Origin: an uncultured Bacteriovoracaceae bacterium
GTDB lineage: Bacteria; Bdellovibrionota; Bacteriovoracia; Bacteriovoracales; Bacteriovoracaceae
Length of the DNA stretch: 64,000 bases
Reading direction: 5' to 3'
Assembly (NCBI GenBank): GCA_938034385.1
Contig: CALHLC010000022.1
Span: forward strand, 62,001 to 126,000
Shown here: positions 39,558 to 49,906 of the stretch, in pieces
Layout: each line of letters starts with the position of its first letter
Numbering within the stretch: the first letter of the stretch is position 1
Notes under the pieces: generated by a model
The model's database searches: none
What the model was told of the DNA's origin: nothing
The model's input: the letters and a program-made list of their open reading frames with translations, nothing else
Made by a program: the position numbers and the translations under genes

Positions 39558-39638
39558 TTGAGACAATATTGCTCAGATACCTCTTTTTATTTATTATTAT
39601 TTCTAATCAATCAATTATTTTCTATACTTAAATAGTTG

Positions 39639-41897
39639 ATGAAATTTATTATTTTATTATTTTTAATGTTTTCCAATGGGTTTTCTAAAGGCTTTGATCA
39701 TACAGAATATCAGAAGACGATTTCTAATTGGCGAGAGTTAGTTGATAACTCTCAATATACTTTTGAATCAATTAAATCTAATGCTACAGAGACAAGTCAT
39801 CAAGATCTTATGGCCAAGCTCAACTTAATTAGTAAGGAGAGATCAAATTATTTAAGTTATTTATATGCTAATGATAAATCATCACTTTTTAAAATAAATT
39901 CAGATTTTTTAAATGATCTTAAAAGAGAGTTGAAAGCCGTTCCTTTTAAGTGGTACACAATTTTTTTTCTAAAAGCTAAAAGATTAAAAGGGTATTTAAA
40001 TTCAGGGTTTTCAGGTGTTTCAAAATTAGTCTTAGAATTAATAAAAATTTTCAGTGTTTTCTTTGTCCCATTTTTTGCTTGGAGACTATCAAATAAATTA
40101 ACTGTTGAAGTAAAAAAGAGAAGATCAGAATATGTAAAACTATCCTATAGAGGTAAGAAGAGTTATTCATTTGCTTCCGAATTTATGAGGTTGTTCATCA
40201 TATATCTTCCATGGATTATCTCTCTAGTGGCCTTATACGTAATGGTCTGGTTAGTAAGACAGAGCGAGTCTCTAAGTGAGTTTGCTGATTTTATCTTGTT
40301 TTTTAGATATTACATTTATTATAGAATCTTAAAGAAGTTTATTTATGATACTCTCGTTCGAATTGGAAAAACTCGATCAAGGCACAAACAAGAACTTTTA
40401 AAGCTTCAAGAAAAAGCAAAAAATCACGCAACGAGATTTGGTTTAATTTTAATGTGGACATATTTCTTACTTGATCTAATCAGGAGTGTTGTTAGTAAAG
40501 GACTCTCTTATTATATAGTTTTATTTATCAGCTCTATTTTAATTGTTTTACTTGTATTAGTGATAGCAGCCCAATGGAGAGAAGAATTATCTCAAAAGCT
40601 TAAAGCTTTTAGTCTCCCTCATTTATCTACTTGGTTTGCAGATCTTGTTACTCAGAAAAAGTGGTTTTTCTTAAGTCTTCCAGCTCTTTTAATCGTTCTT
40701 CTTGTAAATTCTGTTCAAACTCTTTTAACTTGGTTGGAAAAATTCGATTTTGTAAAAAAAATAACAGCACAAATTTTTAAGAAAAGACTGGAGAGTTCAG
40801 AGAACCTAACTGAAGAGACTACTCACAATGTTCCTGAAGATTACATCATTCACTTTAAAAAAAGCATAGATGAAGATACGGGATTATTTGTAAATCCCGA
40901 AAATGACATTTTAAATAAAATTAAGGAAGTCATTTCACATTGGAGGGATGATAAGAGTGAAGAAAATTCCATGGCCATTGTTGGAGAGACTGGGATAGGA
41001 AAGTCTACTATTTTATCTATGGTAGCCAGAAACTTTGGTAACCTAAAGGTTGCTAAGGTGGTAATGGAAGAGCGAGTCTCGAGTGAAAAAGACTTTTATG
41101 ATTTTATCTTTAAAACTCTAGGGATAGAAGGCGAAGGAATTGTTTCATTGATTAAGTATGATAAGAGTGCAGATCAAACCTTAGTATTGATAGATGAAGC
41201 TCAAAACTGTTTTATTTCTAAACTTGGAGGCTTTGAATCTTTTAAAGCTCTTACTGAAGTTTTAAATGCAAAACTTGAAAATATTTTTTTCTGTATCTCT
41301 TTTAATCAATATGCATGGAACTATCTAAATGCTTGTTTTGGAAAAAACCAAAACTTTAGAAATATCATCCATATTAAAAGCTTAAGTGAAACTGACCTTA
41401 GAAATATTGTGATGAACCGTCATAATCAAACTAAATATGAATTATCCTTCTTGGATATTATTCGAGCTGTAGGGGGAAAATTTGCTAGTGAGAGTACTGA
41501 AGTTATTGCAGATCAATTCTTCAGATTACTTTGGGAACAATCATTAGGAAATCCAAGAGTCGCTATTGCAAATTGGTTATCATCATTGAAGTTCAATGGA
41601 AGGAAAAAGTTTTATTTAGGGTTACCTCATGATGATGATTTATCTAAAACATTAGAAAATATGAGTGATGATACTCTTTTTACCTTTGCTGCAATTGTTA
41701 AACATGAGAATTTATCAGTAAAAGAAATTATGGAAATCACTCACTTAAGTGAAGGTGCCGTAAGATATGCGATTAGATTTGGAATTGATAATTCAATTCT
41801 CAGTATGAAAGATACAAGAAGTTATAATATTGATAATAGATTTCAACACACCTTAATTAGGTATTTAAAAAAGAAGAATTTAGTTTATGCCAGGTAA
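39639..41897 (+). CDS. membrane-anchored AAA-type ATPase coupled to an MscS channel gene
   Basis: 752 codons from ATG 39639 (a TTG just before is less likely). The N-terminus has a signal-like helix, then a soluble region and about five membrane helices (about 130-150, 184-206, 267-282, 289-312, 341-358). The cytosolic C-terminal half is an AAA-type NTPase: Walker A GETGIGKS at 449-456 and Walker B LVLIDEAQ at 515-522, with a winged-helix-like end (IMEITHLSEGAVRYAIRF). The membrane part resembles the helix-rich N-termini of large MscS-family proteins. The next gene (MscS) starts 11 bases before its end. I infer an ATP-dependent gating or assembly partner for that channel; no such function is established to my knowledge. 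Confidence 0.6.
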   Translation: MKFIILLFLMFSNGFSKGFDHTEYQKTISNWRELVDNSQYTFESIKSNATETSHQDLMAKLNLISKERSNYLSYLYANDKSSLFKINSDFLNDLKRELKAVPFKWYTIFFLKAKRLKGYLNSGFSGVSKLVLELIKIFSVFFVPFFAWRLSNKLTVEVKKRRSEYVKLSYRGKKSYSFASEFMRLFIIYLPWIISLVALYVMVWLVRQSESLSEFADFILFFRYYIYYRILKKFIYDTLVRIGKTRSRHKQELLKLQEKAKNHATRFGLILMWTYFLLDLIRSVVSKGLSYYIVLFISSILIVLLVLVIAAQWREELSQKLKAFSLPHLSTWFADLVTQKKWFFLSLPALLIVLLVNSVQTLLTWLEKFDFVKKITAQIFKKRLESSENLTEETTHNVPEDYIIHFKKSIDEDTGLFVNPENDILNKIKEVISHWRDDKSEENSMAIVGETGIGKSTILSMVARNFGNLKVAKVVMEERVSSEKDFYDFIFKTLGIEGEGIVSLIKYDKSADQTLVLIDEAQNCFISKLGGFESFKALTEVLNAKLENIFFCISFNQYAWNYLNACFGKNQNFRNIIHIKSLSETDLRNIVMNRHNQTKYELSFLDIIRAVGGKFASESTEVIADQFFRLLWEQSLGNPRVAIANWLSSLKFNGRKKFYLGLPHDDDLSKTLENMSDDTLFTFAAIVKHENLSVKEIMEITHLSEGAVRYAIRFGIDNSILSMKDTRSYNIDNRFQHTLIRYLKKKNLVYAR

Positions 41898-42726
41898 TGA
41901 AAATTTAACACAAGCTTTTGATTATTTAAGTCTTTTTAGATTTGAATCGATATTATTATTAGTAATAGGTTTTGGCTTATTGATTTATATTGCCAAAAAA
42001 TTTAGAGAGTTTGTTTCTAGAGTTCAAAGAAAATATCCAGACCAACGGTTAAGTATTTTACAAATTGCGACTGTTATAACGTTTATTTGGTATATTTTTG
42101 GATCAATCCTTATTGTCTATGGAGCAATACGTCCTCCTAAAGAAGTATTGCTGGGGCTTGGAGGTTCTGCTGCAGTTGCTATAGGTTTAGCTTTAAAAGA
42201 TATTGTCGCTTCTTTTATCTCTGGTGTTGTCTTATTATTTGATCGTCCATTTCAGGTTGGAGATAGAGTAAAGTTTAAAGATGTTTATGGAGAAATTAGC
42301 CATATTGGATTGAGAGCAGTTCGATTAGTTACTTTAGATGATAGTCTAATAACTATTCCAAACTCTGAGTTTACAAGTAATTATGTTTCTTCTGGTAATT
42401 CTGGTGCTCTTGATATGATGATAGAGATTCCATTTCATTTATCAACAGATGTAGATATAGATAAAATTAAAGAAGTCTTATATGAAATAGCTATAACAAG
42501 TAGGTATGCATACCTTAAGAAGCCAGTATCCATTGTGATGAGTGAAACAGTGCTTGGTTATTCTGTTGCTCTCATATTTACAGTGAAGGCTTACGTCTTC
42601 GATGTAACCTATGAGAAGGCCTTTCAAACTGATATCGTTTCAAGAGCATACAAGTATTTCCAAAAACAAGGGATAAATAGGCCTAATTCTCACTTTTTAG
42701 TTGTCAATGAAGCTCTAAATTCGTAA
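41887..42726 (+). CDS. MscS-family mechanosensitive channel
   Basis: 279 codons, starting inside the ATPase gene. Helices at about 18-36 and 59-80, then the pore helix LGLGGSAAVAIGLALKDIVASFISGVVLLF (about 88-118), followed by the beta domain DRPFQVGDRVKF and IGLRAVRLVTLDDSLITIPNSEF, all typical of MscS. The channel would open under membrane tension in osmotic downshock. Length matches E. coli MscS (286). Overlap with the upstream ATPase gene implies a joint function. Confidence 0.88.
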   Translation: MPGNENLTQAFDYLSLFRFESILLLVIGFGLLIYIAKKFREFVSRVQRKYPDQRLSILQIATVITFIWYIFGSILIVYGAIRPPKEVLLGLGGSAAVAIGLALKDIVASFISGVVLLFDRPFQVGDRVKFKDVYGEISHIGLRAVRLVTLDDSLITIPNSEFTSNYVSSGNSGALDMMIEIPFHLSTDVDIDKIKEVLYEIAITSRYAYLKKPVSIVMSETVLGYSVALIFTVKAYVFDVTYEKAFQTDIVSRAYKYFQKQGINRPNSHFLVVNEALNS

Positions 42727-42736
42727 TTAAAACTCA

Positions 42737-43114
42737 ATGAAAAATAAGATTTTTGATATCCTTGGAATGGGATTATCTGGACTGTGCATTATTCACTGTA
42801 TCGTTCTGCCTTTTATTGTACTAATTTATCCCGCTGCAAACTTTGTTGAAGATCACTTAGTACACGATTTAATCTTTGTGTTTATCATCTTAACTGCTCT
42901 TTTATCTTTTCTACCTCATGCAATAAAAAATAAATCTTTCAAGAGTCTCTTTTTGCCTATCTTAGGAGTTATCCTTTTAGTGATATCTAACTCTGTTTTC
43001 CATCATGAAAAAAGTTCTCTGAGCTTAGGTATTAGTTTTCTTGGCAGCTTTTTCTTAATTTTAGCCCATTATAATCATTATCAAGCTAGAAATTGCTGTA
43101 AAGAGACTCACTAA
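42737..43114 (+). CDS. MerC-like inner-membrane protein
   Basis: 125 codons, four membrane helices. The first carries SGLCIIHCIVLP with Cys17 and Cys21, the pattern by which MerC proteins bind mercury or other soft metals; a further pair CC (120-121) is near the C-terminus. MerC homologues without mer neighbours are common and may transport copper or other metals. The following thioredoxin-like gene has its own promoter-like region. Confidence 0.75.
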   Translation: MKNKIFDILGMGLSGLCIIHCIVLPFIVLIYPAANFVEDHLVHDLIFVFIILTALLSFLPHAIKNKSFKSLFLPILGVILLVISNSVFHHEKSSLSLGISFLGSFFLILAHYNHYQARNCCKETH

Positions 43115-43809: not shown

Positions 43810-43840
43810 TTGAAATTGACTCAAGGGAAGGCCTTATGAT
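43810..43840 (+). promoter_or_regulatory. probable MerR-type promoter with a 19-base spacer
   Basis: TTGAAA (43810-43815) and TATGAT (43835-43840) are separated by 19 bases, the elongated spacer typical of promoters activated by MerR-family proteins. The spacer and flank contain the partial dyad AAGG/CCTT (43823-43826 and 43832-43835). It lies 31 bases before the TTG start of the MerR fusion gene, so autoregulation is likely. Confidence 0.5.
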
Positions 43841-43870
43841 GAAATAACACCAAAAGATAAGGGATGAAAA

Positions 43871-45421
43871 TTGCACTCTATAGGACATGTTGCTCAAATT
43901 ACAAATTTAACTGCAAGAACCTTAAGACATTATGAAGATAAGGGCTTAATCACTTCTTTTAGAAATGTAGAAAGTGGTCATAGGCATTATTCTAGCGAAG
44001 AAATCCAAAAAATTGAAAGAGTAAAAAAATTCAAATCAATGGAATTCTCGCTGGATGAAATCAAATCATTGTTATTCTCTGAAGAGAATATGTTGCAAGT
44101 AAACCTTGAAGAAAAATTTGAATATAAAATTGAAGCAATTGATAGGAAGCTTACTAGATTAGAATTATCTAAGGAACAAGTACAAAATCAACTTTTGGTT
44201 ACAAGAAAATTTTTTAATGGCAGCTCATTAGAAATAAACCAAAGGAGAGTACTTATGGAAACTTTGAAAACAGAGATTTTAAATCAATTGAAAAAAAGAA
44301 AAACGGTAGGAATGAAGGAACTTGAACTTTTAAAGAGAGAAAATTATTTAATTGATAACTTAGAAAAAAGAAAGTTCTTTAAGGCTCTAAAAGATTGTCT
44401 AGCTTTTGCAAAAAGAGAAGGGATTCGAGTAGGACCAGCCAGAGGAGCTTCACCTGCTCTTTTGTCTTTATATGCTCTTGGATGGAGTGATTTTGATCCG
44501 ACTGATTATAATCTTATCCCGGAGAGGTTTGCAGCAACAGATTTTGATCTTCATATAGATGTTGAGTTTAAAAATGGAAAAAAGTTTATTGATTTCTGTA
44601 AACAAGTATCACAAACCTTGCCGTTTGGCCGAATTGAAGCCTTTAAACTTCCAATTTTAGATATTATTGAAAATGTAAAAAATAGAATAGAAAGTTCATT
44701 TAATTGTGATGACTTTGATAACGATGACCCGCTTATACTAGATCAATTTAGAAAAGGAGAGATTGATTATATTTTCTCCTTTGATATTCCTAAAGAAACT
44801 TTGATGTCAAAATATATGGATAATAACTATTATAAATTAGGGAAGACAAAAAAAATGTTCAGTGAGTATCTAAAATCACAGGAAATCTATAATTATAAAG
44901 ACTTGCTAAATATAGAAGCAATCTTTAGACCTAATAATTTAGATACGAAGTCTTTTATGCGTGAATACATTGATCGCTACCCCAAAGCAAAAGTTAAGAA
45001 ACACTCATACACCTGTTTAAGCTCAGCAATAAATGAATATTTAAAACCTAATTTTGGAGTAATTATTTACCAAGAAGATATCATTCATATAATTAGAGAA
45101 TATACATCATGGAGTTACGAGAAATGCAATTATTTTAGAAGATCACTTCAAAGAGAAACGATCTCAGAAGGTGAAAAAATTGAGTTGTTAGAATATATGG
45201 ATTCAAAAGTCGTTGAATTATTAGAAAAAGAGTCTCCTGTTGTATTTTGTAAAGCTCATGCAGTTGGAGCATGGAGTAAAATTATTAAAACTACTGCTCT
45301 TTTTAAGGCCTTATATAAGGACATCTATTTAGAAGAAATAAAAAAGTGGGAAAGTGAAAATGGATATTCTTGGGGAGATTTTGGATTTATATTTAATGAG
45401 ATCTCTATTCTTCAACAATAA
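43871..45421 (+). CDS. MerR regulator fused to a DNA polymerase III alpha-like core
   Basis: 516 codons from TTG 43871 (AAGGGATG upstream). Residues 1-70 are a MerR winged helix (IGHVAQITNLTARTLRHYEDKG), then a dimerisation coiled coil to about 125. Residues 160-480 are homologous to the catalytic core of DnaE: VGPARGASPALLSLYALG (187-204; DnaE VGPGRGSxAGSLVAYAL), DPTDYNLIPERF, TDFDLHID (223-230, matching the Asp401/Asp403 motif), EAIFRPNNL, FGVIIYQEDIIHI (396-408) and FRRSLQRE. The third Asp (555) appears as Glu. The PHP domain and other DnaE parts are missing. A strong internal AAAGGAG and ATG (44255, residue 129) sit at the domain junction. Normally MerR and DnaE are unrelated; function unknown. 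Confidence 0.75.
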   Translation: MHSIGHVAQITNLTARTLRHYEDKGLITSFRNVESGHRHYSSEEIQKIERVKKFKSMEFSLDEIKSLLFSEENMLQVNLEEKFEYKIEAIDRKLTRLELSKEQVQNQLLVTRKFFNGSSLEINQRRVLMETLKTEILNQLKKRKTVGMKELELLKRENYLIDNLEKRKFFKALKDCLAFAKREGIRVGPARGASPALLSLYALGWSDFDPTDYNLIPERFAATDFDLHIDVEFKNGKKFIDFCKQVSQTLPFGRIEAFKLPILDIIENVKNRIESSFNCDDFDNDDPLILDQFRKGEIDYIFSFDIPKETLMSKYMDNNYYKLGKTKKMFSEYLKSQEIYNYKDLLNIEAIFRPNNLDTKSFMREYIDRYPKAKVKKHSYTCLSSAINEYLKPNFGVIIYQEDIIHIIREYTSWSYEKCNYFRRSLQRETISEGEKIELLEYMDSKVVELLEKESPVVFCKAHAVGAWSKIIKTTALFKALYKDIYLEEIKKWESENGYSWGDFGFIFNEISILQQ

Positions 45422-46263: not shown

Positions 46264-48609
46264 CTAACTAAGCTTAATTCTTGTCATCCCATCAGCGGAT
46301 TCTTTAGGGATTTCAATCTCTAACTCAGCATTGTTTTTAACAAAATTTCTTAACCAGTTTTTTAAGATCCCATTCCCATGGCCATGGATAACTTCAAGAT
46401 AGGGAAGGTTATCAGCATATAAGTCAGAAAGCATTAACTCTATTTTATTTCTAAATTCATCTAGTCTCATCCCTCTTGCATCAAGACTTAAGCTTTCATG
46501 TGCTTTTTTAGTATAATTGAAAGAAAATTGATTAGTTGGTTGCTTTTGTTTGGGGCCATAAGCAAGTTCATCAAATCCTGCTTCTACTTTAAAATTTTTC
46601 CCTATCCCCAACAGAACTTTCTTGGTGTTTAAATTTACCTTGAGTACTTTGCCTAGTTTTCTTAAAGGCTTATAAATATAACTTTGATCAATGATAGGTT
46701 CTTGGTTGATAGTTTTAAAATTACTTTTTTCTTGCACTTGAAGAATTTCTTCAGATTCTATCTCGCAAAAACTTTTATCAACAGATTTAGTGCTAGTCGT
46801 TTTCTTATTTTTTATATCATCTAGAACTTTGTAAGATTTATTTTTTATCTTCTTTAGTTCTTCTTTCAATTTTGTGATTTCCTCTTGTGTTTTTAATTTC
46901 AAGATTCCTTCTTGGGCCTTTAATTGATTGGATAACCTGTGGTTTATCTCTTTGTTTTCTTTTAATTCTTTTTCAAGTGAAGACTTCTTTTTGGAGACTT
47001 CTGATAATAAGGCTTCATAATCCATTAGTTTTTTATCAAGTATCTTTTTAGAGCTTTCAATAATTTCTTGACCAAACTCAAAGTTCTTTGAAAGTTGAGT
47101 GAAAATCTCTAGGGCCCTAGAACTTCCTGGTGAATTAAAAAAGAGTTTATAGGTTGGTTGACCACTATCTGGATCAAAGCCAACATGAGCAGACATGAGT
47201 TTGTTTTTTTCATGAGTTTTCACTTTTAACATTTGATGGTGAGTGGAAACAAATATCAATGGTTTTGTTGTTTTCTCAAAATAATCAAAAAATCCAAGAG
47301 CAAGAGAAGAGGCCTCCTCTGAACTTGTTGAATTAAATATTTCATCTATAAAAATAATAGAGTCTTGTCCCAGAGAATTGGCTAATTCAAGATAGTTTTT
47401 CGTTTCAGCTGCAAAAGAGCTTAAACCTTCTTTTAAACTTTGATGATCTTGAGAGAGAAAGTATATTTCCCTAAAGATAGGAATACTGGCATTTTTAGCC
47501 GGAACAAATAAACCAATATGAGGAAAGAGGGAACATAAGCATATGGTTTTTAAAGTTAGGGTCTTCCCTCCGGTATTGGGACCAGAGATCATGACTCCTT
47601 GTAAGTCATTATCTAAATTTATTGTATTAACAATCGGATCTTCAAGAAGAGGATGATAAAAATCTTCTAGCCAAAAATTATCTTCTTGATTTAAAAGTGG
47701 TCTTTCAAGCCTATAAGCATAAGAGAATTTAGCAAGAGCAAAGGAGTGATCAAGGGCCAATACTAATCTTGTGATTGTAGGGATTTCTTTAATATAATCT
47801 TTTAGTAAGAGAGTGAAGTCTTTACAGATTCTATAAATGACTGCTTCGATCTCAATTGAGAGATCTTTTCTCTCGTTTGAGATAGTAGAGAGTTTTTTAG
47901 GTTCAACATAAAGAGTTTGCCCAGAATCAGACCTTGCATGAATAAATCCTAAGTCTTTTGAATAATGATCAGTTTTAATAAGTAGTACAAAATGATCATT
48001 AAAAATATCATAAGTATTAATCTGTAAGATTTCATTTTTAGAATAATCTCTTATTAAATGATTTAAGACTTCTTTAGCTTTTAAATCTAGCTTATTTCTT
48101 TTTTCGTACAATCTTCTTAGTTCGGGATGTCTTGCATATTCAATGTTTCCATCGAAATCCACAAAGGTTCTAAAGGGCTTAACTATCTTTCTTATGATGG
48201 GCTGAAAAGTAGATGAATCAATTTTTTTATTTGGAAATAGTTTTTGAAATAATAAAGTATTTTGATGAAAGACTTCAAGTATAACGACAACTTGATGAAT
48301 TTCTTCAATAGTTAAGATACTTTCTTTTTCGATCTTTTTAACGTTTGCAATGAGATTCACATCGGATTTTAAAGATTGAATATGTTGGTAGAAGTTTTGG
48401 TACTCAGAACTGTCAATATATTTCATTGATTTTTCTAATAACTCAAATAAAGAATGTATTTCAGACTTAGATTTTTTGCGAGGAAAGGCCTTGATCTTTT
48501 CAATGTTCATCTTAAAGTAGCAGTTTTGTGCTATTGTAGATGTAATAAGATCCCAATCGATAAGATTTAATAATTTATAATCTGTTTGGGCAAGAAGGTT
48601 CAGTTCCAT
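46264..48609 (-). CDS. mutS2: MutS2 with Smr domain
   Basis: 781 codons. The clamp/lever helices are followed by the ATPase with Walker A GPNTGGKT (343-350) and EIFNSTSSEEASSLALG; after a coiled-coil region of basic and acidic helices comes the Smr nuclease domain: LDARGMRLDEF with VIHGHGNGILKNWLR. MutS2 (RqcU in Bacillus) recognises collided ribosomes and splits them, feeding the ribosome quality-control route; older work links it to recombination. The gene begins at the same CATG as the NFACT gene on the other strand, so the two have no intergenic region and each promoter must lie in the other coding sequence. Confidence 0.9.
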   Translation of the reverse strand: MELNLLAQTDYKLLNLIDWDLITSTIAQNCYFKMNIEKIKAFPRKKSKSEIHSLFELLEKSMKYIDSSEYQNFYQHIQSLKSDVNLIANVKKIEKESILTIEEIHQVVVILEVFHQNTLLFQKLFPNKKIDSSTFQPIIRKIVKPFRTFVDFDGNIEYARHPELRRLYEKRNKLDLKAKEVLNHLIRDYSKNEILQINTYDIFNDHFVLLIKTDHYSKDLGFIHARSDSGQTLYVEPKKLSTISNERKDLSIEIEAVIYRICKDFTLLLKDYIKEIPTITRLVLALDHSFALAKFSYAYRLERPLLNQEDNFWLEDFYHPLLEDPIVNTINLDNDLQGVMISGPNTGGKTLTLKTICLCSLFPHIGLFVPAKNASIPIFREIYFLSQDHQSLKEGLSSFAAETKNYLELANSLGQDSIIFIDEIFNSTSSEEASSLALGFFDYFEKTTKPLIFVSTHHQMLKVKTHEKNKLMSAHVGFDPDSGQPTYKLFFNSPGSSRALEIFTQLSKNFEFGQEIIESSKKILDKKLMDYEALLSEVSKKKSSLEKELKENKEINHRLSNQLKAQEGILKLKTQEEITKLKEELKKIKNKSYKVLDDIKNKKTTSTKSVDKSFCEIESEEILQVQEKSNFKTINQEPIIDQSYIYKPLRKLGKVLKVNLNTKKVLLGIGKNFKVEAGFDELAYGPKQKQPTNQFSFNYTKKAHESLSLDARGMRLDEFRNKIELMLSDLYADNLPYLEVIHGHGNGILKNWLRNFVKNNAELEIEIPKESADGMTRIKLS

Positions 48610-49906
48610 GATTCAAGACTATCAAATTATTACTAATCAGATAAATGGTTTTCCTGCTAATAGTGGCTCGCCTATACAAAAAATTTTCTCTACTGCTAGA
48701 TACTTGGCCATTAGCTTACGATCTCCTGGAAAGACTCATTGGATCTATTTAGGCAGGGGAGCTGGCTTTGAAGGATTGTGGTTTGGTGATAAACCACCTG
48801 AATCGAGCTTAAGGGTAGTTAAAGATCAGTTGCTGCAGTATGTACGGAAATATCTGTCTGGAGGAATATTTCACTCTATTGAATTAGATAAGTCAGATCG
48901 AATTATTAAAATTAATTTTATTAAATGGGGACAAATAAATTCATTTTTTTACTTTTATAGAGGAAGAGAATCCATTTTTGCATCTAGACTTTTTGAGGAT
49001 ACTAAAGAAATAAATTTTTCAAGCTATCATGGTTATGTTGATAGAGAAATTGATTTTGATCTTTTTGATGAGATTGGAAGGGCCGAGCTAGAATCAAAGA
49101 AATCTAATAGGAAAAACCTAGAACTTCTAGATCTTTTAGAGAAAGAGAAAAAAGATAGATCTTTAAATAATGTAAAGAGAACGAAATTTATAAAAAGAAA
49201 AGTTAAAAATATAGAAGGAGATCTTACTAAAATGTTATCTATTCCTAAAGTGGAACAAACTGTAAACTCTTGGATGCTAAGACTTCAAAACAATGAAGAA
49301 GTCTCTGAATTAATCGATGTTAGCAAGGTTATGTTAAATGGGTTTAAGTTTAAATTTGCTAAAGACATATCAAGTTTTAAGAAGGTCGATATAATCTTTC
49401 AAAAGATTAAAAGGTTGAAGAAGGCCAAGGAGCTTTTAACGAGAAGATTAAATGAATCTAAAGGGATGTTGATCGAAACAAAACGAGATGATTTGAAATT
49501 ATCTCAAAAAATAATCTTACCTATTTGGAATAGGAAGAAGTTAAAAGTAAAAGAAAAGCTTAATGCTGACTATATAGAAGTTGAGCTTGATAATTATAAA
49601 GTGGTCATTGGTAAAGATGCGAGATCAAACGATCATTTGAGAAAATCTTGGGCCAAAAAGAATGATTGGTGGTTTCATATTGAAAATCAACCGAGTGCAC
49701 ATGCTTACGTGAAAGATTCGTTGGGGCTAGGAGTTAATCCTGAGTTTTGCAAAAAAATAGCTAGGCAATTAAGAACAGCGACAAAGCTAGAGAGCTCTGA
49801 AGTTTCTATTATCTACACTCAAGTCAAAAACTTAAAAGGAGTTAAAGGAGTCGCTGGTTCAGTCTTTTTTAAAAAAGAAAAAAGAATTACCTGCTATATA
49901 GACTAA
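48608..49906 (+). CDS. NFACT-family protein (RqcH-like), short
   Basis: 432 codons, AGAAGG 9 bases before the ATG. The C-terminal 120 residues form the NFACT-R (DUF814) domain: DYIEVELDNYKVVIGKDARSNDHL, then WWFHIENQPSAHAYV and AGSVFFKKEKR. A coiled coil precedes it (about 160-290), and the N-terminal 150 residues are a reduced NFACT-N-like part. RqcH binds stalled 50S-peptidyl-tRNA complexes and adds alanine tails. At 432 residues this is shorter than the roughly 570 of Bacillus RqcH, so tail synthesis cannot be assumed. Directly divergent from mutS2, whose product acts in the same pathway in Bacillus. Confidence 0.75.
   Translation: MIQDYQIITNQINGFPANSGSPIQKIFSTARYLAISLRSPGKTHWIYLGRGAGFEGLWFGDKPPESSLRVVKDQLLQYVRKYLSGGIFHSIELDKSDRIIKINFIKWGQINSFFYFYRGRESIFASRLFEDTKEINFSSYHGYVDREIDFDLFDEIGRAELESKKSNRKNLELLDLLEKEKKDRSLNNVKRTKFIKRKVKNIEGDLTKMLSIPKVEQTVNSWMLRLQNNEEVSELIDVSKVMLNGFKFKFAKDISSFKKVDIIFQKIKRLKKAKELLTRRLNESKGMLIETKRDDLKLSQKIILPIWNRKKLKVKEKLNADYIEVELDNYKVVIGKDARSNDHLRKSWAKKNDWWFHIENQPSAHAYVKDSLGLGVNPEFCKKIARQLRTATKLESSEVSIIYTQVKNLKGVKGVAGSVFFKKEKRITCYID

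Follow-up and report, generated by a model that had tools for sequence, protein, structure and literature searches.

The window, a stretch of 64,000 nucleotides from an uncultured member of the Bacteriovoracaceae, carries on its forward strand an open reading frame (43871-45421) that starts with TTG, reads through without a stop, as the original prediction had it, and encodes a protein of 516 amino acids. The N-terminus of this protein (residues 3-68) matches the Pfam model MerR_1 with an E-value of 2e-16, and the C-terminal part matches two models of DnaE, the alpha subunit of DNA polymerase III: DNA_pol3_alpha (the alpha 'NTPase' model, corresponding to the palm; E 1e-9) and DNA_pol3_finger (E 4e-14 to 8e-13). 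The MerR match and both DnaE matches exceed the curated cut-offs, and NCBIfam and PDB sequence searches agree with the Pfam result. The DnaE-like part comprises 388 residues, compared with about 1190 for the DnaE of the same genome, which is encoded on another contig. The features of the gene are listed in Table 1.

Upstream of the fusion gene lie a gene for a membrane protein of 753 aa whose C-terminal domain is an AAA domain (39636-41897), a mechanosensitive channel gene (41887-42726) whose start overlaps the end of the former, and a MerC-family (mercury transport) gene (42737-43114), located two genes before the fusion. Downstream (46264-49906), a MutS2 gene (MutS_V and Smr domains) is divergent from an NFACT/RqcH-like gene, the two start codons almost touching; MutS2 and NFACT/RqcH are ribosome-rescue factors in other bacteria.

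Table 1. Positions of the MerR-DnaE-like fusion gene, its domains and its predicted control elements in the window.
Feature	Position	Strand	Evidence or remark
MerR-type promoter/operator (predicted)	43810..43840	+	-35 TTGAAA (43810-43815), -10 TATGAT (43835-43840)
19-bp spacer between -35 and -10, TTGACTCAAGGGAAGGCCT	43816-43834	+	window promoter
Full-length MerR-DnaE-like fusion	43871..45421	+	516 aa; AAGGGA (43859-43864) before the TTG start
MerR winged-helix DNA-binding domain, residues 1-70	43871..44080	+	PF13411 E 2e-16; 16/16; Foldseek
Long helix of dimerisation type, residues 72-115	44084..44215	+	AlphaFold helix H72-115, monomer model
Internal ribosome-binding site AAAGGAG (44241-44247) and ATG (44255-44257)	44241..44257	+	388-aa DnaE-like product
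DnaE-like product alone (predicted), 388 aa	44255..45421	+	Pfam, PDB search, hhalign
DnaE palm-derived region with GPARG and HIDVEF	44264..44581	+	PF07733
GPARG nucleotide-loop motif	44432-44446	+	GxxRG invariant 16/16
HIDVEF, remnant of DFDVDF	44552-44569	+	Asp230 invariant 16/16
EAFKLP at the place of DnaE KFDFLG; Asp555 to Phe258	44636..44653	+	Phe 16/16; manual motif alignment
Fingers-derived region	44864..45166	+	PF17657; alignment to 5lew 639-806
His463, the DnaE KSH-motif histidine (Mtb DnaE1 His787)	45257..45259	+	invariant 16/16; alignment

A PDB search with a profile of the C-terminal part of the family finds solved DnaE at E 8e-30, and the hhalign alignment of this part with DnaE of the same phylum has a probability of 99.9 (E 7e-32). 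AlphaFold modelled the window protein with a pLDDT of 87 and a clade II protein (about 26% identity) with a pLDDT of 88; the top solved match of each model in Foldseek is DnaE (E 2.6e-11 for the window protein, 7e-9 for the representative of clade II, the most divergent clade). The N-terminus of both models matches MerR structures, those of the window protein including the N-domain of TipAL (2vz4, ranked first) and CueR (1q06). Structure prediction and an HHpred-type comparison, both suggested as checks by the original prediction, bear out, together with the Pfam and PDB profile matches, its claim of a MerR regulator joined to a DnaE palm and fingers core. The PHP domain and most of the N-terminal part of DnaE had also been reported missing; by length and alignment the PHP domain, the thumb and the OB/tail region are indeed absent, and in the hhalign profile alignment the family lacks about 100 DnaE residues that cover the thumb region and a portion of the palm.

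Homologues with the same order of MerR and DnaE core were found across the Bdellovibrionota. In an alignment-based search, 19 of 369 genomes of the phylum, distributed over 10 genera, carry the fusion, the window's own genome counted; in the 18 further genomes, 16 relatives span the whole gene (one with an internal stop) and two are partial. The search of the class yielded five of them: one fragment and four gene-spanning relatives (42-65% identity). The gene-spanning relative L035 (genome G071) is interrupted by a TAG shortly downstream of the internal start and L038 (G064) is a fragment of the fusion only; these decayed copies show that the gene can be lost. MerR (PF13411/PF00376) and the DnaE palm model are matched by all 16 stop-free full-length proteins, and the finger model by 13 of them. 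Three further genes (G169, G174 and G175) encode about 500-540 aa and, judged by their N-terminus, which is the same, are probably members. The sequences of the relatives come mostly from metagenome assemblies, and the fusion is open in 16 genomes at identities down to 25%. The fusion is real and conserved.

A scan of bacteria and archaea with clade I motifs (one genome per species) gave nine loci, all in organisms named Bdellovibrio, Bacteriovorax or relatives; clade II was searched for within the phylum only. Single-sequence scans of genome contigs and viral contigs gave no relatives. Viral matches from the alignment search were ordinary long phage polymerases (954-1221 aa), and phage and plasmid matches were partial (22-31% identity) and, where annotated, ordinary DnaE.

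By sequence alignment, HIDVEF (residues 228-233) lies on the DFDVDF motif of DnaE: the place of Asp401 is taken by His or Trp and that of Asp405 mostly by Glu, while Asp403 survives (Asp230). The original prediction had placed Asp401 and Asp403 at residues 224 and 226, which is wrong, these residues varying freely across the family (D/E/V/A/K/R/S/T and others). The hhalign register is shifted by two residues, and there too at most one of Asp401 and Asp403 is kept in all members. The third catalytic Asp is missing, as predicted, but the Glu proposed in its stead (E256) is not conserved; the Asp555 column is Phe in 16/16, a placement made by manual motif alignment (EAFKLP for KFDFLG) in a stretch that hhalign leaves in a large gap. 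The catalytic triad Asp401/Asp403/Asp555 (E. coli numbering) reads H/W, D and F, and to judge from these residues the DnaE-like domain is probably catalytically dead. Because most catalytic residues are lost and yet GxxRG, Asp230, Glu402-Asp403, His463 and Lys473 are invariant in proteins down to 25% identity, the domain looks as if it were kept for binding and freed from catalysis, and not decaying. His787 of Mtb DnaE1 is one of the three protein contacts of nargenicin (PMC8922275); every relative has a counterpart of this His. Of the other two contacts (Mtb numbering), Arg667 is also present in clades I and Ib, and Gln638 in four Ib members; in clade II the equivalents of both are either lost or variable.

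The ribosome-binding site and ATG at the junction, which the original prediction had read as an internal start, are present at the positions it gave, and a purine-rich site followed at fixed spacing by a start codon occurs at the junction in every relative. All 16 genes have AGG as the codon of the invariant Arg125, which forms part of the ribosome-binding site, against 35 of the 452 other Arg codons of the same genes (about 8%), a count taken over related sequences and given with no formal probability. At the other conserved Arg positions, between three and six different codons occur. Fifteen of the 16 genes have ATG as the internal start codon and the remaining one has GTG, as does the stop-containing L035; the full-length start is TTG in the window gene and ATG in its relatives. 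On this comparative evidence, the codon-level conservation of AGG is not explained by the protein sequence, and the internal start is evolutionarily conserved, two products being predicted.

Spacers of 19-20 bp, such as the one predicted here, are typical of MerR promoters (PMC9909328). The layout TTGACC-19-(T/C)ATGnT precedes most relatives; the 19-bp spacer is found in the window and in the clade I and Ib relatives, and clade II fits the 19-bp rule less clearly. At up to three mismatches, a threshold that more divergent sites would escape in all our regulon searches, the window operator is the sole match in its genome. The clade Ib operator pattern has one match each in eight of the 12 genomes tested, all upstream of the fusion gene, and none in the other four, among them G069 and G088, which have diverged versions; the reversed control pattern has no match in the 12 genomes. 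With a looser operator core, other matches are mostly at the level of the reversed control, a clear exception being a site in G158 before a gene that joins MerR to a part of Lon. The upstream sequence of the clade II gene of G156 occurs once in each of three genomes. Since, in the genomes to which the matching pattern applies, the site is found almost only before the gene itself, and no conserved neighbouring gene was found around the relatives, the fusion protein probably controls mainly itself.

A search with the MerR-linker part revealed a second MerR group of about 340 aa, which is more widespread in the Bdellovibrionota. All 16 members extracted (L095, L096, L104, L114, L122-L127 and L129-L134) carry an internal ribosome-binding site with its ATG where the two parts join. 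Mur_ligase_M is matched in five of eight members, the best E-value (0.0026) being below the curated cut-off; the only PDB match of one profile of the group is MurD (E 0.11), and that of the other is an unrelated glucosyltransferase (E 0.11). The weak resemblance of this C-terminus to the Mur ligase central domain is no more than suggestive. The gene mentioned above for G158 (L086:1742-2827), of a type found in one genome only, fuses MerR to the substrate-binding (N-) domain of Lon (PF02190 E 3e-24); its internal ribosome-binding site is weak, and the operator upstream is of the same kind as that of the MerR-DnaE gene in this genome. The cassette of MerR, linker and internal start looks like a module that has recruited different enzyme fragments. 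It is possible, if on balance doubtful, that predatory bacteria possess a modular and apparently undescribed class of 'enzyme-mimic' MerR proteins, in which the cassette is combined with inactive fragments of essential enzymes (DnaE, Mur-ligase-like, Lon N-domain), each serving as sensor and sponge for attacking compounds or proteins, or for substrates, of that enzyme.

Our preferred reading, to which we give a little better than an even chance, is that the gene encodes an autoregulated MerR sensor and sponge of the TipAL/TipAS type, with a dead polymerase fragment as its ligand-binding part. The full-length form would bind the promoter with the 19-bp spacer that lies immediately before its start and, upon binding of a ligand by the C-terminal domain, would activate it. 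Two proteins would be made from the transcript, the full-length one and, presumably in excess, a free C-terminal domain translated from the internal start; this free DnaE-like domain would take the ligand out of circulation. Because the shortened DnaE core has lost most catalytic residues and keeps part of the nucleotide pocket, the ligand is most likely one that normally docks in the active site of the replicative polymerase, such as an inhibitor, a nucleotide or a DNA end.

A sensor and sponge is favoured because TipA shares the plan of an autoregulated MerR protein that has an internal start and controls few or no other genes, and because a decoy role against nargenicin has been suggested for a homologue of DnaE. 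TipA has two start codons and constitutes a minimal autoregulated resistance system, with the short form as the predominant drug binder (PMC7762955). The window gene resembles TipAL/TipAS of Streptomyces lividans in its MerR N-terminus, for which the TipAL N-domain is the best structural match, in the predicted control of its own promoter, and in two in-frame starts that yield a full-length regulator and a free ligand-binding domain (predicted here); it differs in phylum and in having a fragment of DnaE where TipA has the TipAS fold, and neither the window protein nor its relatives have a Pfam match to the TipAS domain (PF07739). NarR/NgnU of Nocardia, a dnaE homologue adjoining the nargenicin cluster, is the proposed decoy (PMC8922275) and is likewise a DnaE relative proposed to protect by binding a polymerase inhibitor, whereas it is, compared by description, a neighbour of a biosynthetic cluster with no MerR fusion described. 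With DnaE itself (C-family) the fusion shares palm and fingers homology, the GxxRG loop, the YxE of the fingers and the KSH-type His, but it has no PHP, thumb region, OB or tail, its fingers are shortened, the equivalents of Asp401 and Asp555 are lost, and it is joined to MerR. AlbA is not known to be a fragment of an essential enzyme. It is comparable in being related to MerR and conferring resistance by trapping albicidin (PMC6078987). The sensor-and-sponge reading has points against it: the pocket is kept only in part, with the two variable nargenicin contacts in clade II; the promoters of clade II fit less clearly; and the internal ribosome-binding site of MerR-Lon is weak.

The main rival is nucleotide sensing, a possible but rather unlikely alternative in which dNTPs, (p)ppGpp-like molecules or primer ends would report the state of replication or predation to MerR, and the short form, as a competitor for ligand or dimer partner, would tune the response, without a role as sponge or in resistance. 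The invariance of the GxxRG loop and His463 is consistent with it, and the Mur-ligase-like and Lon N-domains of the kin fit substrate sensing as well as inhibitor sensing; a sensor of general state would, however, be expected to control other genes, and the sites lie almost only before the gene itself. Improbable in our judgement is a decoy or guard, in which the DnaE fragment would be bait for a phage or competitor protein whose binding triggers MerR and floods the cell with bait. Such a role would agree with the retention of the entire palm/fingers surface, which is more than a minimal pocket, with the patchy distribution (19/369 genomes) and the decayed copies (the internal stop in G071, the fragment in G064), and with kin that hold parts of other essential enzymes, whereas the neighbourhood has no link to defence genes or prophage, and we know of no DnaE-binding attacker of these hosts.

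The reading that the original prediction preferred, a DNA polymerase effector switched on by damage or metal, is highly improbable because catalytic residues and thumb are missing. Palm and fingers homology and one Asp of DFDVDF (Asp230) are retained; against this, the third catalytic Asp is Phe in 16/16 and the first is His or Trp, about 100 residues with the thumb region are absent in the alignment, and there are no DinB, ImuA, ImuB or LexA partners among conserved neighbours. The imuA/imuB/LexA association of the DnaE2/ImuA-ImuB mutasome was not found around the fusion, which has no conserved neighbours and a MerR-type promoter instead. Still less probable is a metal regulator of the nearby merC-like gene: this gene (PF03203 E 9e-17) lies 0.75 kb upstream, but it is not conserved near relatives, and the sole operator copy, between a thioredoxin-like gene and the fusion gene, is directed away from it. 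The original prediction also considered a polymerase-derived DNA-binding domain, which was right in kind, and the remains of two genes merged by stop loss; the latter, and an assembly artefact at the join, have a probability close to nil. In their favour stand the ribosome-binding site and start at the junction, but 16 genomes, with proteins as little as 25% identical, have an uninterrupted frame for this fusion, so that it is no assembly or stop-loss artefact, and the same junction occurs with other C-terminal domains.

Among open-access papers, no description was found of MerR together with DnaE and Bdellovibrio, nor of a transcription factor sensing via a replicative polymerase that has been inactivated. 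MerR goes unmentioned in two genome-wide surveys of bacterial polymerases, one of which explicitly left out fragments lacking an intact active site. The family adds a case of a gene-internal translation start conserved at the codon level. If the sensor-and-sponge reading is true, the ligands would point to natural molecules that act on DnaE, which is much sought after as a target for antibiotics, and the gene would serve as it stands as a biosensor for DnaE inhibitors. The modular class, if true, would represent a general way to make a drug target its own alarm.
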